IMG/VR virus record: IMGVR_UViG_3300009304_000002
Location: 1-41,759 of that record
Direction: 5' to 3' (one strand)
Source of the DNA: a virus
DNA: 41,759 bases
Shown piece by piece: positions 5,101-24,242 of the stretch. How positions within the stretch are numbered: the first letter of the stretch is position 1; each line of letters begins with the position of its first letter. The translations under genes were made by a program, and so were the position numbers. The notes under the pieces are model-generated. The model was given only the letters and a program-made list of their open reading frames with translations, was not told the DNA's origin and did no database searches.

Positions 5101-8100
5101 ATGACAGGAAGAAGTTTAAAAGTAAATTTGGTTGCGAATACATCACAATTTAAGTCCGCTATGTCGGAAACAAGTAATCAAATGAAGCTTATAAACTCAG
5201 AGTTTAAGAGTGCAGCCGCAGAAACGGACAAGTACGGTAATAAACTAGATCAGACCGGTGCGAAAAAGAAACAATTAAATGGCACCATCCAGCAATATAC
5301 GCAACGTATTAAAGCCATTAAAAATGAACAAAAACATTGGACGGCTGAACTGAAAAAAGGAAACATCACTGAAACCGAACATGCTCAGAAACAACAAGAA
5401 TTAGCGCGTCGTTTAAATAATACAGAAGCCGAAATGAAAAAGTACGAGGGCCAACTTAAAAAGTTGAACGCAGAAGGTAAAAATACGACTAGAACGTATG
5501 CAGACTTCGACAAAAAGTTTCGTGAAGTTGGAACTACAATGCGAAATGTCGGTGCTCAAGTCGGCATAACGGCAGGCGTAGGATTTATGGCCATGAAACG
5601 GGTATTAGGTGATGTGGTTAAAGAAGCAAGTACATTTCATGCCGGTATGTCAGAGGTGCAGGCCATTTCTGGTGCTACTGGTGATGAATTAGGCAAGCTT
5701 ACTAATCAAGCCAAAGACTTAGGAAAGGCAACTATGTTCACGTCACAACAAGCCAGTGAATCGATGGCTAATCTTGCACGCGCAGGATTTTCTGTTTCAG
5801 AAATTTACGATACAATGCCAGGTCTATTAGATTTAGCGGCTTCATCTAAAATGGAGTTAGGAGCGGCGGCTGATGTAACAGCGAACATTTTGCGGACCTT
5901 TAATTTTGATGCAAAAGAATCTGGTCGGGTTGCCGATATACTTGCAAAAGGGGCGGCTACAGCAAATCAAGATGTCGCTGGATTAGCCAAATCTATGGAG
6001 ATTGCAGGTCCAGTTGCTAACTCACTAAACTTAACCTTCGAATCAGTCGCTGCGGCTACTGGTATGATGGCTGATGCAGGTGTGGATGGAAGTACGGCGG
6101 GGAGAATGTTGCGCCAAGGTATGTTACGCCTTGCAAAACCGACTGGTGATGCGGGTAAACTACTTAAAAAAATGGGCGTTGAAGCATTTGATGCCGATGG
6201 AAATATGAAGTCGCTTGATAAAGTTGTGGCTGAACTTGAAAAAGGTTTGAAGGGTCAAACTAAGCAACAAAAAGCGGCAGCATTAGCAACTATTTTCGGT
6301 TCAGAAAGTACCGCAGGTTGGACTGTCTTATTAGATAAGGGTGCGGACGAACTCGAAGCATATACAAAAGAACTAGAAAACTCGGAAGGCGCAGCCAAAA
6401 AAATGGCTGACGTTATGCAAGATAATGCCGAGGGTGCAATTATTCGTATGCAGTCTGCTTTATCTGGTTTGAAAATTGAACTAGGTGAAAAACTATTGCC
6501 TATTCTTGCAAAAGGTGCAGACTTTATTGGTGATTTAGCCAATGAAATGTCCGAATGGGACGAGGAAACAATCACTACGATTGCACAAACTGCATTGTTG
6601 GTTACAGCGGTGTTGGGAGTAACTACAGTCGTTGCTGGGTTAGTCGCAGGTTTAGGCGCCTTTATGATGGTAGCGGGTCCAATTGGATTGGCTGTTGCCG
6701 CAGGAACATTGTTATTGGGTGGATTGGCAGCGGCCGCATATAAGTCTTCCCTTGAAACTAAGAATCTAGCAGAAAAACAAGAGCAAGGCGCCATAGATGC
6801 AGTCCGATATGGTGAAGGATTGTCCGAAGGTACTAAAAAAGGCGTTAAGGGTTATAGGGATCTGTACGAAGGCGCGAAAGTTAAAATGCTTGAGCTTAAA
6901 ACCATGTCGGGTGATGAAGCGAAAGCAACATCTGCTGAAATCGTAAAGTCATTTAGTGAAATGGCTGATGCGGTCATAGCAGAGTTGGAAACGCAGAAAG
7001 AAAAACTGTCGGCTGCAATAAATGAGGTTTATGCAGTTGCGGGTAAAGCGGGCGAAAAAGCGGCGGGTGAAATGTCCGACAAAGTTTTAGAAGCGTTTGA
7101 TGCTGACATAGCCGCATATAAGAAAGCCTTGGATGTAGTCAAGAAAGTACAAGAAGAATTTGGTGGCGATGTTAGTAAAGCCCCGAAAGCCTTGCAAAAA
7201 GCATATGCCGAATCCCTGGAAATCATGGATGGTGGAGCAAGGGAATTCGCAAAAAATCAAGATGAATTACGTATCATTCAGAAAAATATTGCCGAAACAC
7301 AAGGCGGCATTATGTTCGAAGAAGTATCGGGTTACACCAAGAAAATCAATGAGACGTATGATGAATCTATTAAATCGGCTCTTGGCTGGAATGCTGAGAA
7401 AAAAGAAGTGTTTGAACAAGGTTTAGCGCAAGGCGTTATAAGCACTGAAGAATATGCCAGTCTTATGGCGGCAACAGAAGCCACCACGACTCAAATGATG
7501 GCAGAGTCGGCTAGTGAACAAGAAAAATCGTTAAGCACATTAAGCGCCAATTTAAATGAACGCGGAAAATTAATTGATTTGTCTACTGGTGAAGAGTTTG
7601 AACGTAAAAAGTGGCTACAAACAAGTTCCACAGGTATTCAAACACAAGTGGAGGAAAGTGAACTTGCGTATCTAGAGCGATGGCGCAAACATAAAAACGA
7701 ACACTTAGAATCGACTTCTGAATTTGCAACAGCAACTCTCGAGCAACAAAAAAACACACTCGTTGCAACCCTTGAAGGATTGGGCATGACTAGCGAAGCG
7801 GCTGTAAAAGAAGCCGAAAAACTCATGAAAGGCACACTCGAAGAACTTGATAAAGGCGAGCCAGAAGCTAAAGAATCCGGTAAGAAGAAGGGCAAGGCTC
7901 ATAAAGATGGACTTGAAGAGACTAAAGGTGAAAACGAAAAAGCAGGAGACAACGTTTCCAAGGTTTCTACCGACTATCTCGATTTAGAAAAATGGAATGA
8001 AAAGTCTAAGAAGTCCGGTAAGAAAAAAGGAGATGCGCATAAGGATGGGCTAAACTCCACTAAAGGCGCAAACGAAAACTCTGGTGCAGGCGTTTCAGAT

Positions 8101-8985
8101 GGAACAAGTAAAAAGTTAGACACAAATGCAGACAAAGCGAAAAAAGCAGGTAAAGGTAAAGGTGATGCTCACAAATCCGGTTTAGATGGTACGAAGTCAG
8201 CCAATACAGGTGCAGGAAGCCTTTTAAGTGCAGGCGTGTCTCTTATATTATCCAAGACTACTGATGGTGGTGGAGGACGTACAGCAGGTAGTTTATTCGC
8301 TACTGGCATTAGAAGTCAATCGGGTAGCGCTTCAACTGCAGGAACAGGCGTGGCAACTAGCGGCAAGAGAGGGCTTGGAAGTGTTAGCACGTCTAGTACA
8401 GGTACTGATTTCGTTTCTGGATTTAGAAGAAGTATAAGCAGTGGTAGTGGGAGCGTGTGGACAACTGCTTGGTCGCTTGGTAAATCAGCATTAAGCGCAT
8501 TGAAGAAATCTATTAAATCAGCGTCTCCGTCAAAAGAAACTGGTGAGTTAGGAATTGACTTTACGGATGGTTTTTCATTAGCTATCGATAAAGGGAAAAA
8601 GAAATCTATTAAATCGGCAATGATGGTTGGTAAAGAAACAACTCAATCCCTGAGTGATGAAATAGACAAATACAAGCAATCCTTTGGTGCTATTGCTTTA
8701 GCTGTGGAAGGTAATAAACAGACGTTGAAAGTTGAGCACACCTTGGATAAAAAGTTTGATGAATTTGCTTCGATGTTTAAATCTATTAATAGCAAAAAAG
8801 ATAACGACGAATCGTTTGGGGAATTGTTGAAAGCTACATTGCAACAGAATCAGTTGTTGATGCAGTTGTTACAAAAAGATAATAATGTCTATCTAGGAAC
8901 CAAGCGCTTAGCACGCGAATTAACTCCAGACATCAGTAGACTGCAAGGAGATAGAGAAAAGGACTATGGAGTATATAACGGTTAG
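5101..8985 (+). CDS. Tape measure protein (TP901 core family)
   Basis: 1294 residues, the longest gene. The length of this protein sets tail length. The N-terminus (SLKVNLVANTSQFKSAMSETSNQ) and the long alpha-helical part are typical. Residues ~160-440 match the TP901 tape-measure core with repeated ASESMANLARAG and GPVANSLNLTFESVAAATGMMADAG patterns. A hydrophobic stretch at about residues 490-555 may insert in the membrane during DNA ejection. Residues ~925-1045 carry three degenerate Lys/Gly-rich repeats. The C-terminal SALKKSIKSASPSK motif is common in these proteins. GGAAGGCGG precedes the ATG. Confidence 0.93.
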   Translation: MTGRSLKVNLVANTSQFKSAMSETSNQMKLINSEFKSAAAETDKYGNKLDQTGAKKKQLNGTIQQYTQRIKAIKNEQKHWTAELKKGNITETEHAQKQQELARRLNNTEAEMKKYEGQLKKLNAEGKNTTRTYADFDKKFREVGTTMRNVGAQVGITAGVGFMAMKRVLGDVVKEASTFHAGMSEVQAISGATGDELGKLTNQAKDLGKATMFTSQQASESMANLARAGFSVSEIYDTMPGLLDLAASSKMELGAAADVTANILRTFNFDAKESGRVADILAKGAATANQDVAGLAKSMEIAGPVANSLNLTFESVAAATGMMADAGVDGSTAGRMLRQGMLRLAKPTGDAGKLLKKMGVEAFDADGNMKSLDKVVAELEKGLKGQTKQQKAAALATIFGSESTAGWTVLLDKGADELEAYTKELENSEGAAKKMADVMQDNAEGAIIRMQSALSGLKIELGEKLLPILAKGADFIGDLANEMSEWDEETITTIAQTALLVTAVLGVTTVVAGLVAGLGAFMMVAGPIGLAVAAGTLLLGGLAAAAYKSSLETKNLAEKQEQGAIDAVRYGEGLSEGTKKGVKGYRDLYEGAKVKMLELKTMSGDEAKATSAEIVKSFSEMADAVIAELETQKEKLSAAINEVYAVAGKAGEKAAGEMSDKVLEAFDADIAAYKKALDVVKKVQEEFGGDVSKAPKALQKAYAESLEIMDGGAREFAKNQDELRIIQKNIAETQGGIMFEEVSGYTKKINETYDESIKSALGWNAEKKEVFEQGLAQGVISTEEYASLMAATEATTTQMMAESASEQEKSLSTLSANLNERGKLIDLSTGEEFERKKWLQTSSTGIQTQVEESELAYLERWRKHKNEHLESTSEFATATLEQQKNTLVATLEGLGMTSEAAVKEAEKLMKGTLEELDKGEPEAKESGKKKGKAHKDGLEETKGENEKAGDNVSKVSTDYLDLEKWNEKSKKSGKKKGDAHKDGLNSTKGANENSGAGVSDGTSKKLDTNADKAKKAGKGKGDAHKSGLDGTKSANTGAGSLLSAGVSLILSKTTDGGGGRTAGSLFATGIRSQSGSASTAGTGVATSGKRGLGSVSTSSTGTDFVSGFRRSISSGSGSVWTTAWSLGKSALSALKKSIKSASPSKETGELGIDFTDGFSLAIDKGKKKSIKSAMMVGKETTQSLSDEIDKYKQSFGAIALAVEGNKQTLKVEHTLDKKFDEFASMFKSINSKKDNDESFGELLKATLQQNQLLMQLLQKDNNVYLGTKRLARELTPDISRLQGDREKDYGVYNG
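7876..8230 (+). repeat. Three imperfect in-frame repeats within tape measure gene
   Basis: Units begin at 7876, 8014 and 8146 (138- and 132-base periods, 46 and 44 codons). Each encodes a version of SGKKKGDAHKDGL followed by a KG-N-G-GVS-like linker; the third is the most diverged. DNA-level similarity is lower than protein similarity, so this is an old duplication. Confidence 0.8.
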
Positions 8986-8996
8986 GAGTGATGGAT

Positions 8997-9812
8997 ATGT
9001 TAATTGTCGAAAGAAAAGATGGTACTAGATATGACTTGGAAAAGTTGGATATTCATGTATTAAAATTTTATCCATCTTCTCCCGAACCCGACACTGAAAA
9101 AAGAACTATACCAGGCATGGACGGGCACATCGATTTAGGAACCACATATGCGGGAAGAAAACTACATGCAGAAATATCTATAATGCCACAAGATTACCTT
9201 GAATATTCCCTTCTCCGTAATGAAGTATTTCGGATATTTGATAGCAGAGAAAGTTTTTATATAATTCACCACTCAGAACCAAGAAAGAGGTGGTTAGTTA
9301 AATACAGTTCTCCATTCTCCATACCGCATGAACAACCCAAGTTAGGTAGCTTTGACATTGAATTCGAATCATCATCTGCATATTCTCAATCAATCGGTTC
9401 ATTATTAGACCCCTTTACTTTTGATGTAGAAATGTGGCAATTTGGGATGAATATACCACTTGTGGATTTCAGCTATACCCACCACAATACAAGAAACTTC
9501 TCGATTTGGAATCTAGGGGATAAAGTAGTTGACCCGCGTCACGACATGCTCCAGATATTTTATAAGGGTGCGAGTAACGCTTTAACAATTAAAAATCATA
9601 CAACAGGCGATACATGGCACCATAAAAAAACAACGCAAATGACAGACACCGTCACCTTAGATGGTGTTTTTTCACGTAAAAATGGAGTAAGTATTTTTGG
9701 TGATACGAACAGGAAATTAATCTCGTTGGCGCCTGGTGAGAATAAATTCACATTAACAAATACGAACGGACCATTTGAAATAGCATTTGATTTCAGATTT
9801 TTATATCTATAG
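8997..9812 (+). CDS. Distal tail protein (Dit), siphovirus tail component
   Basis: 271 residues. Dit proteins form the hub ring at the tail tip on which the tape measure ends and receptor-binding parts assemble. Evidence: the IPGMDGHIDLGTTYAGRKL motif near residues 35-55, the usual Dit family signature, plus EVFRIFDSRESFYI and the GSFDIEFES segment that ends the N-terminal domain. The ATG at 8997 lies 8 bases after AGGAG (8984-8988); GTG 8988 and ATG 8991 overlap or crowd this site. The second half (residues 130-271) is the Dit C-terminal galectin-like region. Confidence 0.87.
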   Translation: MLIVERKDGTRYDLEKLDIHVLKFYPSSPEPDTEKRTIPGMDGHIDLGTTYAGRKLHAEISIMPQDYLEYSLLRNEVFRIFDSRESFYIIHHSEPRKRWLVKYSSPFSIPHEQPKLGSFDIEFESSSAYSQSIGSLLDPFTFDVEMWQFGMNIPLVDFSYTHHNTRNFSIWNLGDKVVDPRHDMLQIFYKGASNALTIKNHTTGDTWHHKKTTQMTDTVTLDGVFSRKNGVSIFGDTNRKLISLAPGENKFTLTNTNGPFEIAFDFRFLYL

Positions 9813-9825
9813 AAAGGGGGATTTC

Positions 9826-11739
9826 ATGGTTACTAATAACGTAATAGGTATTGATATTAAGCGACGACTGCAAGATATAACAGATATAAAAGAAGAATCT
9901 GGTGAGTCAGTAAAGCGTTCACTCGAAGCGAAAAGCAACGCTGATGAATCAGTTCATCGTTCAGATATAACGAAAAAACAACTTGATGAAGCTTTAAAAG
10001 AGGGCGACCAAGTTGTCGAGGTGCAAACGTTGCGCGTGGATCCTGTTACAGGTGATATTTACCCGACTGCTCCTGATCGGTTTGAAGCGAATCAACGAGA
10101 CCTTACTCAGCAGTTGTCGGATATAGCGATAGACGTGTCGAGGTATTGTGGCGATTTAAATGTATCAGTTGATAATACACAAGGAATATTGAATGCCATT
10201 AGTGCAGTTAAAAATACAAAACAAAAGAAACTTGTTTTTTCAGGTGGTGTATACGCTTATTCGTCCCACTTGTTAATTGATAATCTGGATAAAATTACGA
10301 TTGAATTGAGTCCCGATGCTAAGTTATATGATTTAGGCAAGGACGTTCAAACCGATCAAGGGCTAAAGAAAGCTCCCGTAGGATTAAAAATTCTGAATTG
10401 TAAAGAGGTGAATATCCATAATATTAATCATGATAGTGCTGTAACTTTTGAAACTAGAGTGGTGACAACTATATCTGATCGAGTTCCACACATCGATATC
10501 GACAAAGCTGAAATAGTAGTAATTAATGGAGGTTTACTAGAGGGGTACACAGGTTTAAGGATTGGATCGGTGGAAGTGTATACAGACACAAACATTATGA
10601 GTGATTATTATCTAAGAATAAGAAAAACAAATAAAGTAAACGTAATCGGAGTAGATTTGGCTTCAGACTCTGCAAACGGAGAAGTGTTTGGTTTTTACGA
10701 TTGTGAATCCGTTGAATGGGAAAGTTGTTCACATATTCAAATAGGCTCAGAAAGAACTTTTTGGAGTTTTGGGAAAGTCATTCAATGCGGTGATGTTAAG
10801 ATAGGCAACCATAATATTAAATCAAGTTCTCCAGGGTCACTCATTGATGTAATAGCAACAAGAACTTTATTTTATAGCATGGATGTTGATTACATTAACG
10901 GGAAATTTGCTGACATAAGTAATGAATGGAATCAATTTACGATGGAGCAAGAAGAGGCAGTATTTAAAGATTGTTTCAGTAATGGTTTTGGCGTACAGGC
11001 TACTTTCTCAGGGGATGCATCTTATGATAAGAAAATCAAACATTTAACCATAGATAACTGCATGTTTGGCAAAAATCTTGCACAAGGTAGATTGATGAGT
11101 CTAACCATGTTTGAAAATGTTGATATTAAAAATTGTGATATAGAAAACATTAGATACTTAATAGATGCTCGCTTAACAGCGGGAAGTGCAGACTTTAAAA
11201 GGAATATCAGAGTGAGGAGATGTGATTTTAAGCAAACTTATACCCCAGTTTATATGAACACTATAGGAATTCTAGGAGAAGCCAAGATATCTGACACCAA
11301 CTTCGAATTTACTGGTTCTGCATCACTAGAGATAGTAGACGCTAAATTGAGAATGAACAGTGAAACAGATCTGGCCAAAGTAACAGATCCTTCAACTGTG
11401 ATATTTGAAAACTGTAACTTTGAAGGTGTTAAGTTTCAGATATCTTGTAATACAAAGTTCGTGAATTGTGAATTCGGACACGTATTATCATCAACATATA
11501 CACAATTCAATGTTACAAACAATGCAACTGTAACTGTCGTTAACTCCGAAGGACATAAATACAGCATCCCGACAGAAAGTTATTTTCCAAGAGGCGTGTT
11601 CATTAGAAGTACGGATAGTAATGAGAGAGGAGCACCTTCAAGCAAATATGTTGTTATAGGATGGCAACGCTTGACGAATGGATCGGGACACGCCTTAAAC
11701 ACAGATTGGCGAGAAATGAGAGCTTTGACAGGTAATTAA
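9826..11739 (+). CDS. Beta-helix tail fibre / tailspike-like protein
   Basis: 637 residues. The first ~60 residues are helical and resemble the attachment region of Bacillus-type tail proteins. A GDQVVEV ... GDIYPTAPDRFEANQ segment (about residues 60-95) is a linker known from many such proteins. From residue ~110 on the sequence has repeated short strands with Asn/Asp turns (INCKEVNIHNIN, VTVINGGLLEG, VIFENCNFEGVKF, FVNCEF), the hallmark of a right-handed parallel beta-helix. That fold is common in receptor-binding or polysaccharide-degrading tailspikes. No catalytic residues can be assigned. The ATG at 9826 follows AAAGGGGG. Its site between Dit and Tal is unusual. Confidence 0.75.
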   Translation: MVTNNVIGIDIKRRLQDITDIKEESGESVKRSLEAKSNADESVHRSDITKKQLDEALKEGDQVVEVQTLRVDPVTGDIYPTAPDRFEANQRDLTQQLSDIAIDVSRYCGDLNVSVDNTQGILNAISAVKNTKQKKLVFSGGVYAYSSHLLIDNLDKITIELSPDAKLYDLGKDVQTDQGLKKAPVGLKILNCKEVNIHNINHDSAVTFETRVVTTISDRVPHIDIDKAEIVVINGGLLEGYTGLRIGSVEVYTDTNIMSDYYLRIRKTNKVNVIGVDLASDSANGEVFGFYDCESVEWESCSHIQIGSERTFWSFGKVIQCGDVKIGNHNIKSSSPGSLIDVIATRTLFYSMDVDYINGKFADISNEWNQFTMEQEEAVFKDCFSNGFGVQATFSGDASYDKKIKHLTIDNCMFGKNLAQGRLMSLTMFENVDIKNCDIENIRYLIDARLTAGSADFKRNIRVRRCDFKQTYTPVYMNTIGILGEAKISDTNFEFTGSASLEIVDAKLRMNSETDLAKVTDPSTVIFENCNFEGVKFQISCNTKFVNCEFGHVLSSTYTQFNVTNNATVTVVNSEGHKYSIPTESYFPRGVFIRSTDSNERGAPSSKYVVIGWQRLTNGSGHALNTDWREMRALTGN

Positions 11740-11782: not shown

Positions 11783-13180
11783 TTGCCCGACTTACCCGCA
11801 CTAAACACGATGTCTGGCGCTATCGAACCACTAACCGATTTCAGTGAATTTAAATACAACGAATCCACGGAGGGCGAGAAATCGCTCTCTTTTTATATTC
11901 ATAAAACCGAAAACAATGAGCCTGTTTTTGACTTAATTGTAAATAAAGAAAAGATTGAGTTTGATGACGATAAATACACGATTGATGTGTGCGACCGTGA
12001 ACCGATTGGAACGACAATTGAAAAGTATATCGAGGCCAGGCACGAAATGTTTGACCGACTTAAAGGTGAATTTATTGAAGAGGAATACACCGGTGCACTT
12101 CGCATTGAACGTTGTTTGGATATCGCCTTAAAAGGTACTGGGTTGACGTATGAAGTCATCGGTACATTCACATCAAGGGATTTCGAGAACTTCGGACGCG
12201 CCAAAGGATTGGCTCTATTCCAGACAATAATTAACCGTTTCGGTGTCGAGTATCGTGTTCACGGCACCCACTTAATTATCGCAACCGCAATCGGTAATGT
12301 GACAGACGCTCAATTTAGGCACGCCCACAACTTAAAGAGCATCAGTGAGCATATCGATACGACAGACTTGGCTACGTTTATCAAAGGTTATTCTTATAAC
12401 GACGAGACGGGTGAGCTCCTTGCCTATGCAGAATATGAGTCGCCTTACAGTCATTTGTACAAAGATGAGCACGGAAATAAACGCTTGATACATGCAGATT
12501 ACGTTTATGACAATCGATTCCGTCACAATTCAGAAATGTTAACTGAGATAAAAAGTAGGTTAAAAGATGCGCCAGAATATAATTTGCAAATAACTTATGA
12601 AGAGTTAAAAAATAACGGATTCAAATTGCATCATTACCAACTGGGTGACTATGTTTGGTCCATCTATGAGCCGCTAGGTTTAGATATTCAAGCACGAATA
12701 ATTTCTATAGAAAGTTACCCATACGATCCACATCTCAGCCCCGTTATTCAATTGGGCTCTTTTAGGCGCGACATAACGAAGACAGTATCGGGATTACAAG
12801 GTACAGCAAAGCGTGTGGATGCGGCAGAGGGTGAGATTGTACGAGCCATTTCGACAGCATCTAGGGCGCAAGTCACAGCAGATGAAGCTAAGCAAGCTGT
12901 TGATAATAGCGGCACTACATTAACTCAGCACATTAACGATTATGTACGACATGTTACTGAACTAGAGCGTTCAAATTGGAATAATAAAGCAGGATCAGGT
13001 GACGTTCAATCTGTTTTGCAATTGGCTAACTCATATACAGATGGACAAGTCGAGCAATTAGAAGGTGTGGTTAATACCTATACAGATGAGCAGGTAGCGC
13101 CTTTATTTGTATTAATAGATACGATGCAGATACAAATCATGGAATTAACTCAACGTGTTTCAAACTTAGAAGGAGGGTAG
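11783..13180 (+). CDS. Tail-associated protein (Tal) / prophage endopeptidase tail protein
   Basis: 465 residues starting at TTG 11783, 7 bases after AGGAGG (11770-11775). It has the fold pattern of the prophage tail endopeptidase family: an early CDREPIGT segment, TGALRIERCLDIALKGTGLTYEVIG, then a hub-like DLATFIKGYSYN domain and YQLGDYVWSIYEPLGLDIQARIISIESYPYDP. Residues ~335-465 become helical and coiled-coil-like. It forms the tail tip plug or hub; whether it is a true peptidase is not visible. Confidence 0.85.
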   Translation: MPDLPALNTMSGAIEPLTDFSEFKYNESTEGEKSLSFYIHKTENNEPVFDLIVNKEKIEFDDDKYTIDVCDREPIGTTIEKYIEARHEMFDRLKGEFIEEEYTGALRIERCLDIALKGTGLTYEVIGTFTSRDFENFGRAKGLALFQTIINRFGVEYRVHGTHLIIATAIGNVTDAQFRHAHNLKSISEHIDTTDLATFIKGYSYNDETGELLAYAEYESPYSHLYKDEHGNKRLIHADYVYDNRFRHNSEMLTEIKSRLKDAPEYNLQITYEELKNNGFKLHHYQLGDYVWSIYEPLGLDIQARIISIESYPYDPHLSPVIQLGSFRRDITKTVSGLQGTAKRVDAAEGEIVRAISTASRAQVTADEAKQAVDNSGTTLTQHINDYVRHVTELERSNWNNKAGSGDVQSVLQLANSYTDGQVEQLEGVVNTYTDEQVAPLFVLIDTMQIQIMELTQRVSNLEGG

Positions 13181-13232: not shown

Positions 13233-13550
13233 ATGAATGAAATGACAAGCAATATGAGACCAAAAAGAATGTTTATGGGGACGCCGCAGGTGGATAAGAT
13301 ACAGGTTTACAAAGTGCCATCGGGAAGAAGTGCGGTACTTACACAAGTAATCTTGTCGAATACAGATGCTGAAGAATCGAAGTTGACAATTACGATTAAC
13401 ACGATTGATATTATGCGTGATTATGTTGTTAGTGCAGGGGAAACGAAGGTTATTGATTTGTATGTTGTCTTGAACGAAGATGATACCGTCTCATTGCAGC
13501 AGGAAAAAACTAATGCGATTAATGTTACTTTGAATGGTTCGGCGGGTTAA
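13233..13550 (+). CDS. Small tail/baseplate-associated structural protein (hypothetical)
   Basis: 105 residues, beta-strand rich throughout (AVLTQVILSNTDAEESKLTITIN, TKVIDLYVVLNEDDTVSLQQ), suggesting a compact beta-sandwich. Similar ~100-residue proteins occur after Tal in many Bacillales phages and probably are minor tail-tip or host-binding parts; the function is not known. The ATG is preceded by AGGAGG. Only a 14-codon mini-frame (13189-13233) lies between it and Tal. Confidence 0.6.
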   Translation: MNEMTSNMRPKRMFMGTPQVDKIQVYKVPSGRSAVLTQVILSNTDAEESKLTITINTIDIMRDYVVSAGETKVIDLYVVLNEDDTVSLQQEKTNAINVTLNGSAG

Positions 13551-13607
13551 CATAAAGAAGGATTCCATCCCCTTTTGTCGAAAGGTGACTAAAGGGAGGG
13601 GATTCAA

Positions 13608-14579
13608 ATGAATTTATCTATTGTAGGAACGATACCAAATTTAGTAATTGAATCTGATGTTAATAATATTCAATTTTCAGCATTAAATATAGAGAAAGCA
13701 GGGTCTAATATTAGTTTGCTTCATGATATTCGGATAGCACAAGAGCTAGGAATTGCTGAACATAAAGGAGCATTTTTTGCGCCATGTTTTTATTCATACA
13801 CTAATGAATTTCCTGATACTGAGGAAGTTGCAGATGTACTTGCATCAATGAGAGGAATTTTCGAAAGGGTCTTGTTTTCTTTTTGGCTGGTTAAAGACAA
13901 TTCATTACATTCCAATTTAATTTTCGGGGTAACAGAAAGTGACATTATAATAAGTAGGTCACCAAGAACATTTACTAACTCAGAAGGATTATATAATGAA
14001 AATTTCTTTACGTGCGAGGAAATTAAAGAGGCGGAATCTTGGTTTGAAAAGATGCGAGATACGAATAATAATAAGAAACCCTTGGAATTTGAGAAGCCAA
14101 ATTCTAAAATAGGCAACTTCATAACCTATACAGAAAAAAGTCTAATTCTTAATACGAGACTCGATCGAGCACTTAGGTTTATATTAGAGGCAAGAGGTCA
14201 ATCTTTTCTGCCTGCAAAAATCACGTTTTACATTTCTGCATTGGAATCTTTTTTATCGAATTCTAATACTAAACTGAGAAAGCAAGTTGCTGATAGAGGG
14301 TCGGAGATTTTAGGTCAGACAATTGAAGAAAGAGTTAGGATAAATGAAGTAATTAGTAAGGCGTATTCTTTAAGGTCAACATACATTCATGGAGCAGCTA
14401 GAACTGAAAAAAGTATAAGACAGGTCATAAAACCCCATAGTAATGTAGAGGAATTATTAATCGAATTAGATGATATTTTGAGAAGGATTTCAAAAAGATT
14501 CCTTACGGATTTAAATTACGTTGTAAAAATGGATAATAAAGAATTTTCATCATGGATAAAAGAGCTTCTCAATAATTAA
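13608..14579 (+). CDS. HEPN-domain protein (ApeA-like), accessory gene
   Basis: 323 residues. The C-terminal ~140 residues look like an ApeA-type HEPN domain: an all-helical region with FYISALESFLS (residues 207-216) and YSLRSTYIHG (residues 253-262), giving the RxxxxH ribonuclease motif Arg256...His261. The N-terminal half is mixed alpha/beta and not recognised. HEPN proteins with this motif are usually RNases, and ApeA is a known anti-phage protein; the role here is inferred. The gene is AT-richer than the tail genes, interrupts the tail-lysis order, has a strong GGGAGGGG ribosome site that can pair with ATCCCC 30 bases upstream, and overlaps its own terminator. It is a likely moron. Confidence 0.72.
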   Translation: MNLSIVGTIPNLVIESDVNNIQFSALNIEKAGSNISLLHDIRIAQELGIAEHKGAFFAPCFYSYTNEFPDTEEVADVLASMRGIFERVLFSFWLVKDNSLHSNLIFGVTESDIIISRSPRTFTNSEGLYNENFFTCEEIKEAESWFEKMRDTNNNKKPLEFEKPNSKIGNFITYTEKSLILNTRLDRALRFILEARGQSFLPAKITFYISALESFLSNSNTKLRKQVADRGSEILGQTIEERVRINEVISKAYSLRSTYIHGAARTEKSIRQVIKPHSNVEELLIELDDILRRISKRFLTDLNYVVKMDNKEFSSWIKELLNN

Positions 14580-14594
14580 GTAGGAGTTCTTTTT
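14558..14594 (+). terminator. Terminator overlapping the HEPN gene end
   Basis: A 12-bp stem (14558-14569 with 14582-14593, two G-U pairs) ends in a T run. The HEPN stop codon (14577-14579) lies in its loop. It makes the HEPN gene a separately terminated unit. Confidence 0.62.
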
Positions 14595-14693: not shown

Positions 14694-14719
14694 AGAGCGC
14701 CCTAATCGGCGTTCTTTTT
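14694..14719 (+). terminator. Terminator before lysis genes
   Basis: An 8-bp stem (AGAGCGCC with GGCGTTCT, one G-U pair) with a CTAATC loop, followed by five T. It is 26 bases upstream of the XhlA-like gene, so it probably separates or moderates tail and lysis expression. Confidence 0.68.
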
Positions 14720-14745
14720 GTTTTCAATAAATAAGGAGGTGCGGG

Positions 14746-15174
14746 ATGCCGTCAATAGAAGAACGCCTAGATTCTCACGATGAGCGATTCAAACAACATA
14801 GCGACAGGCTCGAACGCCATGACAAACTATTCGAGACAAACCAGAAAGAAATTAAAATACTAAATGAGCGCGATAAAGATAAGCATGAGCGGCTTTTAGA
14901 TGTCGAAAAAAATTACGAGAAACTCGAAAATGCGGTCACGAAAGAAAATAAAGAAACGCGCGCAACAATGATAGAACAAACAGGAAAGTTGTTTGAAATT
15001 GTTGAACAGGCCATGGGCTATCAGGAGACACGGACTACTCAATCACACGAACTGCGAATGGCCAAACTTAATACTTGGTCCACTGTATTTTTAAAAGTCA
15101 GTGCGGGGCTTGTCGGATTATTAAGTTCCGGTGGCGCTATTTATTACATTATCGTCGAGCAGATTATTAAATAA
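14746..15174 (+). CDS. XhlA-like holin-associated protein
   Basis: 142 residues. Residues 1-~105 are a charged coiled coil (repeated RxxxHDExxxxH-type heptads). A single hydrophobic membrane span lies at about residues 112-135, followed by a short polar tail. This is the architecture of XhlA (haemolysin XhlA family), which works with the holin and amidase in PBSX-type lysis cassettes. AAGGAGG precedes the ATG. The holin and amidase follow directly. Confidence 0.78.
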   Translation: MPSIEERLDSHDERFKQHSDRLERHDKLFETNQKEIKILNERDKDKHERLLDVEKNYEKLENAVTKENKETRATMIEQTGKLFEIVEQAMGYQETRTTQSHELRMAKLNTWSTVFLKVSAGLVGLLSSGGAIYYIIVEQIIK

Positions 15175-15188
15175 AAGGAGTGATTTTA

Positions 15189-15455
15189 ATGGGTGAATTA
15201 TTAAACGAATATGTCGTACAGCAAGCACTGATTGTTATTCCAGTGCTTTTAATTTTGGGTAAAATCATTAAGGAGACGCCAACCGTTAAAGATTGGTTAA
15301 TCCCGTATATATTGTTAATTTTCGGGGTTGTCTTTGCTATTGCGTTGATTGGATTTAATGCAGACGCGATTATACAGGGGGTTTTGGTATCTGGTGCAGC
15401 GGTGTTTGGTAATCAACTTTTTAAACAAGCGGTAGAGCAAAAGAGTGACGAGTAA
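15189..15455 (+). CDS. Holin
   Basis: 88 residues with three predicted membrane segments (about residues 8-26, 35-56 and 60-77). The intervening segment KETPTVKDWLIPYIL and a short charged C-terminus (EQKSDE) are typical of small Gram-positive phage holins, which form the membrane lesion that lets the amidase reach the wall. The ATG at 15189 lies 8 bases after AAGGAG; a GTG at 15180 overlaps the ribosome site. Position between the XhlA-like protein and the amidase supports the call. Confidence 0.83.
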   Translation: MGELLNEYVVQQALIVIPVLLILGKIIKETPTVKDWLIPYILLIFGVVFAIALIGFNADAIIQGVLVSGAAVFGNQLFKQAVEQKSDE

Positions 15456-15496
15456 ATCGTTGCTCTTTTTTAATATAAAAAAATAGAGGGAGATTG

Positions 15497-16600
15497 ATGG
15501 ATATGGTTAAAATTGCAATCGATGCAGGACATGGTATCAACACGGCAGGAAAACGTACACCAGACGGAGAACGTGAATGGTCATTTAATAACAAAGTTGT
15601 GGTTGCGGCAATCGCGAAGCTAAAAGCATTCAAGGGTGTGGAAATATTACGCCTTGACGATCCGACTGGAAGGATTGACGTGCCATTAAGAACACGCACA
15701 ACTAAGGCTAACCAGTGGGGCGCGGATGTATTAGTTTCAGTTCATCATAACGCCATGACAGGTAGATGGGGGTCACACGGCGGCGTCGAAACTTTCACGA
15801 TGGATCACCCGAACGCGAACAAGAAATCAGTGGAAATAGCTAACGTTATTAACCCGCAAATCGTGCGGACAATGGGATTGAGAAATCGCGGCGTTAAAAA
15901 AATGAACCTTCACATGTTGCGTGAATCGAACATGCCGGCTATCTTAACAGAGGGTGGATTTATGGACTCGACAACAGACATCCACGTTATGCGTAACGAT
16001 AGCAAGCTAAGGGCGCAAGGCGTGGCAATTGCTGAAGGGTTAGCGAAGTATTACGGATTGAAGTCTGGCGGGGTTGTAGAGCAACCTAGCGAGTCTGTTG
16101 CAACTGTTAAACCTGAGCCGGCACCTGAACCAGCACCGAGCAAACCAAAGGGTAAGTCTGTATCCCAATTGGCTAGTGAGGTAATCTCCGGTAATCACGG
16201 CAGTGGTCACGAAAACCGTAGAAAGTCGTTGGGTATCAGTCAAGCGAAATATGAAAAAGTCCGTGCCGAAGTGAATAAAAGGGCAGGGGCAACAACCAAA
16301 CCGGCAACCAAGAAGTCCGTTGCTCAAATGGTGCAAGAGGTCTTGGAGGGTAAGCACGGTAATGGTCACGACGCAAGGCGGAAGTCTTTAGGTATTGGCA
16401 CAGTGGAATATGGAAAGGTAAGTTTAGAGGTTAACAGGCGGTTAAGCGGCGGAGCTAGTAACACTAAGTCGATTAACCAAATGGCGACCGAAGTAATTAA
16501 AGGTAACCACGGTTCCGGTCATGCTAACAGGCGAAAATCTTTAAACATCAGTCAATCTCAGTATGATAAAGTTAGAGCCGAAGTAAATAAGAGGTTGTAA
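15497..16600 (+). CDS. N-acetylmuramoyl-L-alanine amidase endolysin with three Cpl-7 repeats
   Basis: 367 residues. Residues 1-~185 are an Amidase_3 zinc hydrolase: AIDAGHG (His12), Glu25/Glu27, VSVHHNA (His83/84) and the catalytic LTEGGF (Glu152). It cuts the bond between MurNAc and L-alanine in peptidoglycan. After a Pro/Glu linker (about 197-220), three repeats starting at residues ~222, 276 and 325 have the SVxQxAxEVIxGxHGxGxxRRKSL ... YxKVRAEVNKR pattern of Cpl-7 (CW_7) wall-binding modules. Start choice: ATG 15497 or ATG 15503 both fit the GAGGGAGA site; the first is listed. A strong terminator follows. Confidence 0.93.
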   Translation: MDMVKIAIDAGHGINTAGKRTPDGEREWSFNNKVVVAAIAKLKAFKGVEILRLDDPTGRIDVPLRTRTTKANQWGADVLVSVHHNAMTGRWGSHGGVETFTMDHPNANKKSVEIANVINPQIVRTMGLRNRGVKKMNLHMLRESNMPAILTEGGFMDSTTDIHVMRNDSKLRAQGVAIAEGLAKYYGLKSGGVVEQPSESVATVKPEPAPEPAPSKPKGKSVSQLASEVISGNHGSGHENRRKSLGISQAKYEKVRAEVNKRAGATTKPATKKSVAQMVQEVLEGKHGNGHDARRKSLGIGTVEYGKVSLEVNRRLSGGASNTKSINQMATEVIKGNHGSGHANRRKSLNISQSQYDKVRAEVNKRL

Positions 16601-17078: not shown

Positions 17079-17489
17079 ATGAGACCAGTACAAGTCAAAT
17101 ATATGTTGACCAGTAAAGAAGCGATTCAAAATGAAGATAATACAGTTAGCTTTATTGAGGTTTTTGATGTTAAAGGCCTAAAAAAAATTCCTGCGAAAAT
17201 CGACTTTTCCCTAATAATTTCACTTGCACATAAACTGAAAAAGGAAGACTCGAAGAAAATTATAGTTAAAATTATTCTTCCAAAGGAAAAAACGAAAATA
17301 GAGGACCTGGTTATCGACCTAGTCGAACAAGACGAAGAGGCGGATAATAAGGATGCAGCGGCTTTGAATATTATTAAACTGTCAAACTTTCCAGTAGATA
17401 AAGAGGGGGTTTATAGTTTCTTATTGTTTTATGACGACGAAGTTTTGTTTAATCATGAAGTTGTATTCAGAAAGGAGGGGGGAAGATGA
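17079..17489 (+). CDS. Hypothetical protein, DUF6941-like beta-rich protein
   Basis: 136 residues. The order of strands (VKYMLTSKEAIQNEDNTVSFIEVFDVKGLKKIPAKIDFSL split around polar loops, then KKIIVKIILP and a late GVYSFLLFYDDEVLFNHEVVF) resembles the DUF6941 family of small beta-rich proteins; this is recognition by pattern and not confirmed. No membrane segment or catalytic motif is seen. ATG 17079 is chosen; a GTG 15 bases upstream lacks a better ribosome site. Its stop overlaps the start of the next gene (ATGA), so the two are translated together. Confidence 0.5.
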   Translation: MRPVQVKYMLTSKEAIQNEDNTVSFIEVFDVKGLKKIPAKIDFSLIISLAHKLKKEDSKKIIVKIILPKEKTKIEDLVIDLVEQDEEADNKDAAALNIIKLSNFPVDKEGVYSFLLFYDDEVLFNHEVVFRKEGGR

Positions 17490-18304
17490 TTCAAAATGTT
17501 ATCGAACTTGATGTAACGAAAATCAGTTCCGAAAAAGTAGAATTATCACCTTCTCCATCTGCCATAGAAAAAGAAGTTTCTCGAATTATCAGCGATGGCT
17601 TTGAGGAAGAACACGGCGAAAAAGTTAACCAACTTGGATACAAGAGAGTGAATTTTGATGTCGCTATCAAAAGAGATATAATCATTATCAATAAAGCTTT
17701 CGCTATTTGTGAAAATGGATCCGTGGAAGTAATCGGAATTAAGCATAAACACCGTATGGGTGGGCATAGTATAAGTACTTCACTAAGGAAAAGGGTGAGT
17801 AATAAAGCTATGACGATTAACTTACCTACACCATTTATTATATTTCAAAATGAATTCATATCTACATTTAAAGAAGCCACATTATTAAAGATAACTGCGG
17901 CCACTTTAATGGCGACTATATTGGCGACCGCAGGAGTTAGCGCAGAGCAACTAATTATGGGGGCGGGGGCGTTTGTATTAATAGCCATATTAGATGCTAT
18001 ATTGGGTGTTATGCCTAACACAAAAAGTGATGAGGAGTATTTAAAAGATCATAAAATTCAAGCCAAGTTCTGGAAATTTACCGCGAACATAGTTGCGATG
18101 ACAGCATTATTATTCGTTCATTTATTTGCAGTGAACTTAGTACCTAATCCAAATCTATTGCAATATATTCCTGTGAATATTCACTATCTTGGGATTGGTT
18201 ATTTTATATCCTCTTATGTTTACAGCATCTTTAAGTATATTTCTGTAGCGAATAATTCCAAGATACCGATTCCTAATGAAATAACTAAGCATTTCAAGAA
18301 ATAG
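17486..18304 (+). CDS. Membrane protein with soluble N-domain and holin-like C-terminal domain
   Basis: 272 residues. Residues 1-~128 form a soluble mixed domain that is not recognised. Residues ~132-252 hold four predicted membrane spans (about 132-150, 155-175, 198-219, 228-250), and the tail has NNSKIPIPNEITKHFKK. The membrane half recalls the TcdE/phiCD119 (phage_holin_4) holin family in its DAILGVMPNTKS loop and its end pattern. The gene is not in the lysis cassette and carries an extra domain, so an effector role (exclusion or cell suicide) is a reasonable inference. A strong AAGGAGGGG ribosome site and a 4-base overlap with the upstream gene indicate coupling. A terminator follows. Confidence 0.5.
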   Translation: MIQNVIELDVTKISSEKVELSPSPSAIEKEVSRIISDGFEEEHGEKVNQLGYKRVNFDVAIKRDIIIINKAFAICENGSVEVIGIKHKHRMGGHSISTSLRKRVSNKAMTINLPTPFIIFQNEFISTFKEATLLKITAATLMATILATAGVSAEQLIMGAGAFVLIAILDAILGVMPNTKSDEEYLKDHKIQAKFWKFTANIVAMTALLFVHLFAVNLVPNPNLLQYIPVNIHYLGIGYFISSYVYSIFKYISVANNSKIPIPNEITKHFKK

Positions 18305-18647: not shown

Positions 18648-18682
18648 AAAGGCGACTACTCCATTATGGGGTAATCGCCTTT
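18648..18682. terminator. Shared hairpin between convergent genes
   Basis: AAAGGCGA (18648-18655) pairs with TCGCCTTT (18675-18682), topped by ACTCC/GGGGT. It follows the zinc-ribbon gene and contains the last codons and stop of the leftward gene 18656-19372. It could end transcription from both sides, although the T tract is poor (TTCTTT). Confidence 0.6.
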
Positions 18683-19372
18683 CTTTGCATCTTCTAGTAC
18701 TGCATAAGCCCAATTCAGTTTATCATTTTGGATGCCATTACTAAGTTTATATAAAAAAGATCTTTTCCATAATACTTTTGATAATATAAACTTCTTAAAT
18801 CGCAACTTAATCCCGGTGTGAGATTCCAGTTTTAGAGGAGTATTATTTATTTTTCTTATTAAAACCTTATCAAAGGAAACATGCCATTTTTGTATATCAT
18901 GGATAAATACAGTACCTATTTTCGGTAAATCTTCTATCTCGTTTTCAACGACAAACGTCAATAAATTCACGAAGTATTCTTCTGCATGTAATAAATATGC
19001 AGCAACATCCTGATCTATACTTTCCCTGTACTCACTTCTTACATACATGATTTCTCCAAAAAAACTTGAGTAAGTATCCCTATCTTGCATTATTGATGGG
19101 AACTGTTGAGCCTTTTTCATGTCAAATCTACTTCCTTGTTTATCTAATTCATTTGCTACGTTATACACTTCGACGGCCAACGTTTCGCTCGCTATTTTTC
19201 TGATTTCTAGTAAAGCGTTTACTACCTCATCCCCAATAGTATTTTGAAACCTTATTTTTTGTTCTATCTTTAATTTTAGTCTATAAAAAATATGCGTTAT
19301 TATTCCCCCAACAACAGCACTTCCTATTAATAAAGCCCATTCATTTGATAACCACTCCCAGATAAAATCCAC
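18656..19372 (-). CDS. Membrane-anchored helical protein (hypothetical)
   Basis: 238 residues. One N-terminal membrane span (about residues 11-31, WALLIGSAVVGGIITHIFY) is followed by ~205 mainly helical cytosolic residues. No family is recognised with confidence. The start is GTG at 19372 with AAAGG close upstream. The gene is 31 bases after the leftward XRE gene and probably shares its transcript. Its final codons lie inside the 18648-18682 hairpin. Its place in the conversion region and its membrane anchor are compatible with a superinfection-exclusion role, which is only inference. Confidence 0.55.
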   Translation of the reverse strand: MDFIWEWLSNEWALLIGSAVVGGIITHIFYRLKLKIEQKIRFQNTIGDEVVNALLEIRKIASETLAVEVYNVANELDKQGSRFDMKKAQQFPSIMQDRDTYSSFFGEIMYVRSEYRESIDQDVAAYLLHAEEYFVNLLTFVVENEIEDLPKIGTVFIHDIQKWHVSFDKVLIRKINNTPLKLESHTGIKLRFKKFILSKVLWKRSFLYKLSNGIQNDKLNWAYAVLEDAKKGDYPIME

Positions 19373-21686: not shown

Positions 21687-23540
21687 TCAAGGTTTTAGGC
21701 CTTCTTCTGCTATCAATCTTCGTATCATCTTACGGTATATCCCCGTAGATTCAGCTAACTTTCTTCCGCTTGCTTGGGGGTCCAGAGCCAATTCTTTTTT
21801 AATCGCATCAACTCTTTCCTGTCTCAGATTAGGACAAGACCAATGCGGCGCTAAATGTTTAAATGGACCAAACCTTTCCTGGTCTCGCCTTAAAGTGTTC
21901 GGCATGGCTCCTACAGCTAATCCTAGCGCTTTCATAGTCATTCCCTTATGCTTATTCAATTTTTTTTGTGCGCGGTCATATCTAACCCTAGCCAGTTCTA
22001 ATGTTTCCCGATTCCTTGTTTCTTCAGTTGATTCAATTTCAATTTTAATATCTATTGTCACGCCTTGTGGTAGGTAAGTGTGTAAGGTGAATTCGTTTAG
22101 CTCAATATCTAAAGTTGCTGACGGGAACAGGCTACCCAGCATGTCCTGTTGTTCCTGCACGTCTAGCATATCCTCGAAACGTTCCGCTACGGACATATAT
22201 TCCAGAACAGAATCATAATTAATTTGGTTTCGCTGGATTAAATTCCGTTTCCGCTGCAACTCTTCCAAATCTTTATCCAAAATAGAAAACTGACTGTCTA
22301 ATTTAACACGGTTAATATCGAGTCTTTCTTTCGGCCAGGTTCCGTCAAGGTACAAATCTAGCAAACGGTCTATTTTCTCTTGGACGTTTTGCTTTTGTGC
22401 TTCGAGTTGTTTGATCTCTTTTCCCAATTTAGTAACTTCATCTTCATCAAATCCGGAATCAATATACTGTTTTGCTTTTTCGGGGTCAGTGAGAATACTT
22501 TTAACTACTTCAATCAGTCGGTGTTGGATACGCTTGACGTTAATATACGGCTTACTACTGCATTTCTCTTTAAGTTTCTTACTTGAGTGTGCCATAGAAT
22601 AGGTATAATATTCTTGTCCTTCTCTTCTACCGGGTGTGGCAGACTTTTCAATGACTAAAGGGTTCCCGCAGCTTGCACAAGTCGAAACTATACCCCGCAA
22701 CATATGCGGTTCAGAAGGCTTCCAGTTGTACCTTCTCTCCATTTCGGCTTGTATCTGATTATAAGCTCCTTCAGTTCGGAGTTTCGGGTACACGTTAGGA
22801 GTGGTGATCGTTTCGCTTTTAAATTTCCGCTCAAAAACGCCGTGATAAGATTTACGCTTTAATTTATCGACTACCTGGGATGCTGTCCATTCCTTGCCTT
22901 CAGCCGTTTTACACCGTTTACTTAATTCAACGGAAATCTCAGTAGGACTCTTTTTCTCTTTTAGGTATTTACTGTCTATGAAGGGGATCAACCAGGCTCT
23001 ATCTTCATTAATCGTCAATATCTCAGTGACACGGTCGTAATGATATTCCTCTGGCTGAGGTCCCCAAACTTTACCTTCACGCGTTCTCTGGCGTAAACCG
23101 CGACCCATTTTCCGCAACATATCTTTTCTCGAACGTTGCGCGAGAAGGTTTTTTAGGTCAGACATGAACTCATCATCAATATTCGATAAATCTACAATGT
23201 TGCCTGGCTCGGCTATTTTAACCTTGTTATCTCGCAGTATGCCTTTTAAAAACTCCCATTTCACTGTATCTAAGCGAGAAAGGCGGTCTTGCTCGATACA
23301 TAGCACTACGTCAACCAGACCTTCTTCTATGGTATCCAGCATAGCTTCCAGTCCATCTTTTTTTAATTTGGTCCCACTGTCTACGTCCTTAAAAGTATCG
23401 ACTATTTCCCAGCCCTGGGCGTTCGCATATTTGTTCAATTCATATATTTGTGCGCTAAGGCTATATTTATCTTCTTGCATTTTAGTAGATACTCTAATGT
23501 AAATTGCTACTCTCATTATAGTAACTATTTTAGCGACCAT
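21687..23540 (-). CDS. int: Large serine recombinase (phage integrase)
   Basis: 617 residues. The N-terminal resolvase domain has AIYIRVST with catalytic Ser18 and the IEQDRLSRL arginine motif (Arg86, Arg89). A recombinase domain follows at ~155-275, then a zinc ribbon (Cys288, Cys291, Cys327 with a possible His ligand) and a long coiled coil at ~345-440, the part that controls integration versus excision. The last ~90 residues add helix-turn-helix-like segments (GMTMKALGLAVGAMPNTLRR; ASGRKLAESTGIYRKMIRRL). The start at 23540 has AAGGAG upstream. It catalyses attP x attB integration; no excisionase-type recombination directionality factor was recognised. Confidence 0.94.
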   Translation of the reverse strand: MVAKIVTIMRVAIYIRVSTKMQEDKYSLSAQIYELNKYANAQGWEIVDTFKDVDSGTKLKKDGLEAMLDTIEEGLVDVVLCIEQDRLSRLDTVKWEFLKGILRDNKVKIAEPGNIVDLSNIDDEFMSDLKNLLAQRSRKDMLRKMGRGLRQRTREGKVWGPQPEEYHYDRVTEILTINEDRAWLIPFIDSKYLKEKKSPTEISVELSKRCKTAEGKEWTASQVVDKLKRKSYHGVFERKFKSETITTPNVYPKLRTEGAYNQIQAEMERRYNWKPSEPHMLRGIVSTCASCGNPLVIEKSATPGRREGQEYYTYSMAHSSKKLKEKCSSKPYINVKRIQHRLIEVVKSILTDPEKAKQYIDSGFDEDEVTKLGKEIKQLEAQKQNVQEKIDRLLDLYLDGTWPKERLDINRVKLDSQFSILDKDLEELQRKRNLIQRNQINYDSVLEYMSVAERFEDMLDVQEQQDMLGSLFPSATLDIELNEFTLHTYLPQGVTIDIKIEIESTEETRNRETLELARVRYDRAQKKLNKHKGMTMKALGLAVGAMPNTLRRDQERFGPFKHLAPHWSCPNLRQERVDAIKKELALDPQASGRKLAESTGIYRKMIRRLIAEEGLKP

Positions 23541-23627: not shown

Positions 23628-24242
23628 TTAATGTTTTCGTTCGGAACGCATGACCTTCCCAATTATTTGTGCTGGGTTGTCTTTGGTGACGAATATTGGT
23701 TCATAATCCGAGTTTTCCGGCATCAATATTATCATGTCGCCTTGTTTTTTTACGCGTTTCAATGTAGCTTCTGTATTTCCGTTTACCATGACTGCGGCAA
23801 TTTCACCGTTTTCCACATCGTGCTGCTCTCGTAACAGAACCATTGATCCATCTGTTATCTCTGGATGCATAGAGTCTCCTTTTGCTTCTAGGTAAAATAA
23901 TTTACCTGTTGGCAACCGCTCCTCTAATTCTGTACGGTAATCTTCGTAGTTTTCTTCCACAAGGATTGGATCACCACAAGCTATAACTCCTAATACTGGG
24001 ATTCTGACTGTTCGTTGGGATACTTCTATAACGTTTGTAGGCTTTTCTTCGAATTGATAAAAAGTTGATATTGGTACTTCGAAGAGTTCCGACATTATAG
24101 AGAGTTTATCCATCATAGGCTTATTCGTATTTAGCTCCCAAGCTGAAACAGCAGTTGGTGATAACTCTAAAACCTTTGCCAGTTCCTTTTGTGTAAATCC
24201 ATTCTTTTTTCTTAGTGTTTTTATTAATTTACCTAAACTCAT
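23628..24242 (-). CDS. CI-like repressor with S24 autocleavage domain
   Basis: 204 residues. Residues 1-~62 are an XRE helix-turn-helix (FTQKELAKVLELSPTAVSAWE at ~16-36). Residues ~80-204 are a LexA/CI-type S24 peptidase with a Cys89-Gly90 bond at the expected cleavage site (VIACGDP), catalytic Ser124 (KGDSMHPEI) and Lys162 (ATLKRVKK). It keeps the prophage silent and is inactivated by RecA-stimulated self-cleavage. GGAGGTG precedes the ATG. It is leftward and divergent from the Cro-like gene across the 24265-24378 operators. Confidence 0.93.
   Translation of the reverse strand: MSLGKLIKTLRKKNGFTQKELAKVLELSPTAVSAWELNTNKPMMDKLSIMSELFEVPISTFYQFEEKPTNVIEVSQRTVRIPVLGVIACGDPILVEENYEDYRTELEERLPTGKLFYLEAKGDSMHPEITDGSMVLLREQHDVENGEIAAVMVNGNTEATLKRVKKQGDMIILMPENSDYEPIFVTKDNPAQIIGKVMRSERKH

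Follow-up and report, generated by a model that had tools for sequence, protein, structure and literature searches.

What is an AT-rich gene doing between the tail genes and the lysis genes of a phage, and what might its product be? The question is raised by the viral record IMGVR_UViG_3300009304_000002, whose 41,759 nucleotides were analysed as a whole (the window). An intact open reading frame on the plus strand (13,608–14,579) encodes a HEPN-like protein of 323 amino acids. The tail module upstream of it includes the tape measure (5101–8985), Dit (8988–9812) and tail endopeptidase (11,783–13,180) genes, and ends with a gene for a 105-residue protein of unknown function (13,233–13,550, plus strand; weak match to PHROG 1276). 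Downstream, on the same strand, are a gene for an XhlA-like protein of 142 residues (14,746–15,174), named by reading its sequence and adjoining holin or endolysin genes in other prophages, then the holin (15,180–15,455; PHROG 1129, E = 8e–26) and the endolysin (15,494–16,600; PHROG 435, E = 1e–52). The gene therefore breaks the tail-lysis order, as a sequence-only reading of this DNA had stated, and that reading was equally right to call it AT-rich: its GC content of 32.0% is the lowest among the tabulated open reading frames, against a window mean of 38.8%. The minus strand carries an integrase related to DNA invertases (21,687–23,540; PHROG 95, E = 3e–73) and a CI-like repressor (23,628–24,242; PHROG 4, E = 2e–40), and, judging from these two predicted genes, the window phage is temperate. 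Two further low-GC genes lie downstream of the lysis genes (17,486–18,304, plus strand, 35%; 18,656–19,372, minus strand, 33%); both products appear to have membrane helices and match no PHROG, and the genes may be additional cargo.

The sequence family and its invariant residues

Direct scans of the window protein against Pfam, PHROGs, PADLOC and NCBIfam gave no match, and a direct tblastn search of phages gave none even at E ≤ 10. A tblastn search of plasmids returned three relatives, two of them annotated as "HEPN domain-containing protein", and an alignment built on these led to 12 viral contigs, of which one is a duplicate, and to 20 genome contigs. Single-sequence scans of the viral and genome collections had found no relatives; the alignment-based scans did retrieve them. 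The family comprises about 35 diverged relatives, found on phages, plasmids and genomic islands in several phyla, and its alignment holds 33 sequences, with relatives 18–52% identical to the window protein. All 33 were scanned against PADLOC and NCBIfam with nothing relevant found, and no published name for the family was encountered in the open-access literature. The family is sparse: within the bacterial family to which a Planococcus relative belongs, 18 of the 261 genomes have it, some of these matches being partial or weak. Its profile also retrieves proteins of other architecture that share the C-terminal domain only (L050–L054). One family copy (L048/L056; G221:C1:3114799-3115742) is interrupted by several in-frame stop codons; the gene therefore decays in chromosomes too.

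Ten residues are invariant in the 33-sequence alignment (G48, W93, K96, D97, E213, Y253, R256, H261, G262, and R292), and a further seven are nearly so (N98, F134, R184, R187, R196, S257, and D288). W93, K96, D97, and N98 belong to a W-L-V-K-D-N motif (codons 93–98; 13,884–13,901, plus strand). R256 and H261 delimit the predicted catalytic RxxxxH motif (14,373–14,390, plus strand), which reads R256-S-T-Y-I-H261 within YSLRSTYIHG and has the polar S257 directly after the arginine. By itself an RxxxxH pattern is weak evidence, as it occurs in 26% of residue shuffles of the window protein. Across five related pairs with measurable divergence, however, dN/dS is 0.12–0.28, which indicates purifying selection, and this, together with the invariance in 33 sequences, argues that the motif has been kept by selection. 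The sequence-only reading had picked out this arginine and histidine as a HEPN motif; both are indeed present, and the assignment is now backed by the invariance in the deep alignment, by a domain predicted to be helical, and by the HEPN annotation that the two plasmid homologs carry. By its sequence, then, the window protein is a member of a real, diverged family with a HEPN-type motif.

Predicted structure and relation to named HEPN families

According to an AlphaFold2 model made with the family alignment (full-length mean pLDDT 85.8, pTM 0.86), the protein has two domains: (i) an N-terminal alpha/beta domain (residues 1–180; 13,608–14,147, plus strand), a putative sensor unlike ApeA_NTD1, in which residues 155–179 form a poorly modelled loop; and (ii) a C-terminal all-helical HEPN-like domain (residues 181–323; 14,148–14,576, plus strand), which contains the RxxxxH motif. 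No Pfam match to the N-terminal domain was found in any of the 33 members scanned. The C-terminal 143 residues modelled alone reach a pLDDT of 92.2. R256 is placed in a helix spanning residues 239–260, and H261 directly after it, as in HEPN ribonucleases. Foldseek comparison of the models with the PDB and with viral models gave no match at E ≤ 0.001. Across the two PDB lists the match of highest probability was the HEPN protein 2q00 (0.60 for the C-terminal domain, E > 0.1), which a survey of the superfamily places under a HEPN-T family (PMC3710099), and two other HEPN proteins, Ire1 and HepT, were among the weak full-length matches. These results agree with a HEPN fold in the model and fall short of proof. 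Profile evidence was thus positive within the family itself; matches to named HEPN families were weak, and none to a structure was significant.

The likeness to ApeA that had been proposed for the C-terminus did not stand. ApeA_NTD1 matched neither the window protein nor any of the 33 members, the window protein did not reach the curated cut-off of HEPN_Apea, and just 3 of the 33 members matched that profile weakly (best E = 0.0049). For comparison, an authentic ApeA encoded in the same family of bacteria gave E-values of 2.1e–32 with ApeA_NTD1 and 8.1e–32 with HEPN_Apea and carries an RNxxTHF-type motif. In a profile comparison with ApeA, both RxxxxH motifs and an LE helix align in order (P = 0.02–0.11), an alignment that was equalled by 3 of 100 column shuffles. 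The window protein and ApeA share an N-terminal domain followed by a C-terminal HEPN domain, with the RxxxxH motif and LE helix in the same order. However, the window family is without ApeA_NTD1, its motif is R-S-x3-H-G rather than R-N-x3-H-F/Y, and the window protein has 323 residues, as compared with about 480 in ApeA. Membership in ApeA was therefore rejected, on account of the different N-terminal domain and of a HEPN part that falls under the HEPN_Apea cut-off; the window protein may act like ApeA, yet is not a member by these sequence tests. Comparison of the family profile with DUF4145 gave nothing. A link to Abi_C, whose score beat all 100 column shuffles, was set aside because the aligned stretch leaves out the RxxxxH motif.

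One relative, on a genomic island, lies next to a genuine ApeA gene. In L071, the family member (9136–10,104) is followed after a 50 bp gap by an ApeA gene with both ApeA_NTD1 and HEPN_Apea on the same strand (10,154–11,590), and a recombinase-like gene is found some kilobases upstream of the family member. The two genes are a possible two-HEPN defence pair.

Location, mobility and regulatory signals

The family gene occupies the tail-lysis module in eight phages or prophages, the window included. In L005, whose protein is 52% identical to that of the window, it lies between a 739-residue fibre-like gene and the holin; in L006 it is ahead of a holin-like gene and an endolysin, in L007 between a tail spike gene and the holin, in L008 between two endolysin genes, and in L012 between two tail genes. 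In L017, from Planococcus, it precedes a holin that shares 71% identity with the L005 holin, and in L074, a baseplate-type prophage whose gene names were taken from reading translations, it precedes the lysis genes. In the family tree these eight members and four others form one branch of 12 rows (support 91/84), and the starred branches require at least four changes of location. The tree rejected a single clade containing every tail-lysis member (AU p = 3e–112), a test that is descriptive since the group was defined with the loci in view.

Comparison of related phages bears on how the gene came to be there. L006 and L012 have flanking genes in common (48–86% protein identity), but the position of the HEPN gene differs between them, and the two HEPN proteins are just 35% identical. 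The tail gene of L012 was found in 31 contigs, with a detectable family member only in L012's own record (refetched as L102). One of these contigs, L111, is 95.6% identical to L012 across the 4 kb upstream and has an esterase-like gene in place of the HEPN segment; others have acyltransferase-, recombinase-, or protease-like genes in the slots, functions that were read from sequence. Among prophages with the XhlA-like gene of the window, the slot is empty in L093 and L098 and holds other genes in L090, L092, L096, and L097. Since relatives have the slot empty or filled with other cargo, and positions differ, the gene is exchangeable mobile cargo, and the slot between the tail genes and the XhlA-like gene is a candidate accessory-gene hotspot. 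Searches of viral contigs with the neighbouring tail and XhlA-like genes found no kin of the window phage itself. The slot genes of L090, L092, L096, and L097, all Planococcaceae prophages, are unassigned, and several begin with membrane helices. The acyltransferase- and esterase-like genes at the HEPN position of L012 (in L105, L107, L123, and L111) are as expected of surface-modification or superinfection-exclusion cargo.

A survey of 43 loci found a tyrosine recombinase within 4 kb in eight, and holins, endolysins, and a transposase in three each. Among their 390 neighbouring open reading frames of at least 60 residues, named partly by reading sequence, no other accessory or partner gene recurred. 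Near two non-sister members of the family, similar-looking PIN-like genes ("IFVVDTN.L..FY"; L070, 12,815–14,224; L074, 12,823–14,181) were named by reading.

Of the regulatory signals proposed for the window gene, the terminator over its own stop codon fared best. This hairpin with a T-run (14,558–14,594, plus strand; –11.0 kcal/mol, z = –3.6) was matched in stability by 0 of 200 shuffles. A second terminator-like hairpin precedes the lysis genes (14,694–14,723, plus strand; z = –4.3), and such hairpins lie downstream of the family gene in L006, L007, and L074 also. The proposed promoter (TTGAAT-N17-TAAAGA, 13,530–13,558) is present, but scores 7 of 12, a level met about 70 times per kb in the window, and is not supported: the 150 bp upstream of the gene hold no promoter-like site that is better than what shuffles give, and no upstream promoter better than chance was found at any of the eight phage loci. 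The pairing of ATCCCC with GGGGAT, which had been read as masking the ribosome site, exists, but the stability of the hairpin that it forms (13,561–13,604, plus strand) does not significantly exceed that of shuffles (z = –1.3, 21 of 200 equally stable; in a second test z = –1.5, 14 of 200 as good), and the 5' hairpin of L005, the nearest relative, is unrelated to it.

Proposed function and known counterparts

A reasonably probable explanation, and the best that we can offer, is a single-gene, two-domain, prophage-borne anti-phage ribonuclease with an abortive outcome. In a healthy lysogen, the C-terminal HEPN domain (R256/H261) would be held quiet. Upon infection by a rival phage, the N-terminal domain with its W-K-D motif would sense either a phage product or some cellular change, after which the HEPN domains would work in dimeric form, and general cleavage of RNA would halt both growth and phage production. 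For the ribonuclease and defence steps we draw on Tha and other HEPN effectors as analogs; dimerization, N-terminal sensing, and the abortive outcome are likewise put forward conditionally, and so is expression in the lysogen, no promoter having exceeded chance at the eight phage loci. An abortive-infection role is plausible, being the best fit by context and by analogy with Tha. The defence reading is favoured by the mobile nature of the cargo, the temperate phage, and the one relative beside an ApeA gene; counting against it, no named HEPN family or solved structure was matched significantly.

The main doubt is that the gene lies among late genes and shows no visible promoter, which would also allow a role in the lytic phase. 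The protein could be a late-lytic ribonuclease that serves the phage's own cycle: transcribed with the tail operon once the prophage is induced, it would cut host or early RNAs or harm co-infecting phages around lysis. The gene shares strand and place with late genes in eight phages or prophages and has no recognizable promoter of its own, yet close relatives lack it and have other cargo at the same place, and many members are on plasmids or islands with no phage late genes nearby, so that we consider this reading unlikely. It is distinctly unlikely that the family, with a W-x2-K-D sensor domain of its own, has a phage-specialized branch that keeps landing in the tail-lysis module and is expressed from the late operon, as a ribonuclease for use against competing phages in the lytic cycle with an inbuilt way of sparing its own phage.

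A role as HEPN toxin within a toxin-antitoxin or addiction module, stabilizing prophage or plasmid, would suit the presence of members on plasmids and islands, and HEPN domains are common as toxins (PMC3710099); an antitoxin might be a small RNA, as in phage-encoded AbiF (PMC12373285). This is nonetheless very unlikely, as no partner gene of at least 60 residues recurs in the 43-locus survey and L005 lacks the antisense frame that lies within the window gene. Least probable of all is a non-catalytic HEPN-fold protein that binds RNA or protein in a structural or regulatory role. Catalysis is predicted from sequence and Foldseek gave no significant structural match, but R256 and H261 are invariant together with E213 and G262, and in HEPN families that are not catalytic the motif tends to be lost (PMC3710099).

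Taken as a probable anti-phage ribonuclease, the window protein represents, by sequence, a new and unnamed branch within an effector type that is already known; its N-terminal domain is new, and its location in phages is a recurrent one. Phage-borne HEPN effectors thereby gain a family missed by the Pfam, NCBIfam, PHROGs, and PADLOC libraries, and the tail-lysis region of these phages is suggested as an accessory site in which to look for defence genes. A further question is how a phage carries a potentially self-harming ribonuclease among its own late genes unharmed.

The best analog of the window gene is Tha-1/Tha-2. Tha is a proven single-gene HEPN abortive-infection ribonuclease of Staphylococcus aureus prophages (PMC11087260). 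Tha-1 of phage 80alpha has 301 residues, no recognizable N-terminal domain, and a C-terminal HEPN domain with R265-NSIM-H270; it is a non-specific ribonuclease that has a minor tail protein as its trigger and no longer protects once H270A is introduced (PMC11087260). Like Tha, the window gene is a single prophage gene of about 300 codons, with an uncharacterized N-terminal half and a C-terminal HEPN domain with RxxxxHG; Tha needs no protein partner for activity, and the window gene has no conserved partner gene. In the profile comparison, 21 columns around the motif align with Tha-1 (P = 0.07) and no homology was detected beyond them, so that the two share a layout rather than any demonstrated descent beyond a possible HEPN fold. 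On the other hand, Tha lies in the lysogeny region with an antisense inhibitor gene, ith, whereas the window gene lies in the tail-lysis module, and its antisense frame (13,790–14,122) has no counterpart of at least 60 residues in L005. Closer in sequence are WP_238240166.1 and WP_127661039.1, annotated "HEPN domain-containing protein" on plasmids of Exiguobacterium and Sinorhizobium, which are homologous over most of their length and keep every invariant residue at 18–27% identity, in a plasmid rather than a phage context. As for the slot, the defence hotspots of P2/P4-like prophages and satellites (PMC9122126) are likewise variable sites with interchangeable accessory cargo, whereas the slot described here, most of whose contents have no assigned function, belongs to the tail-lysis region in phages that infect Planococcaceae and related hosts.
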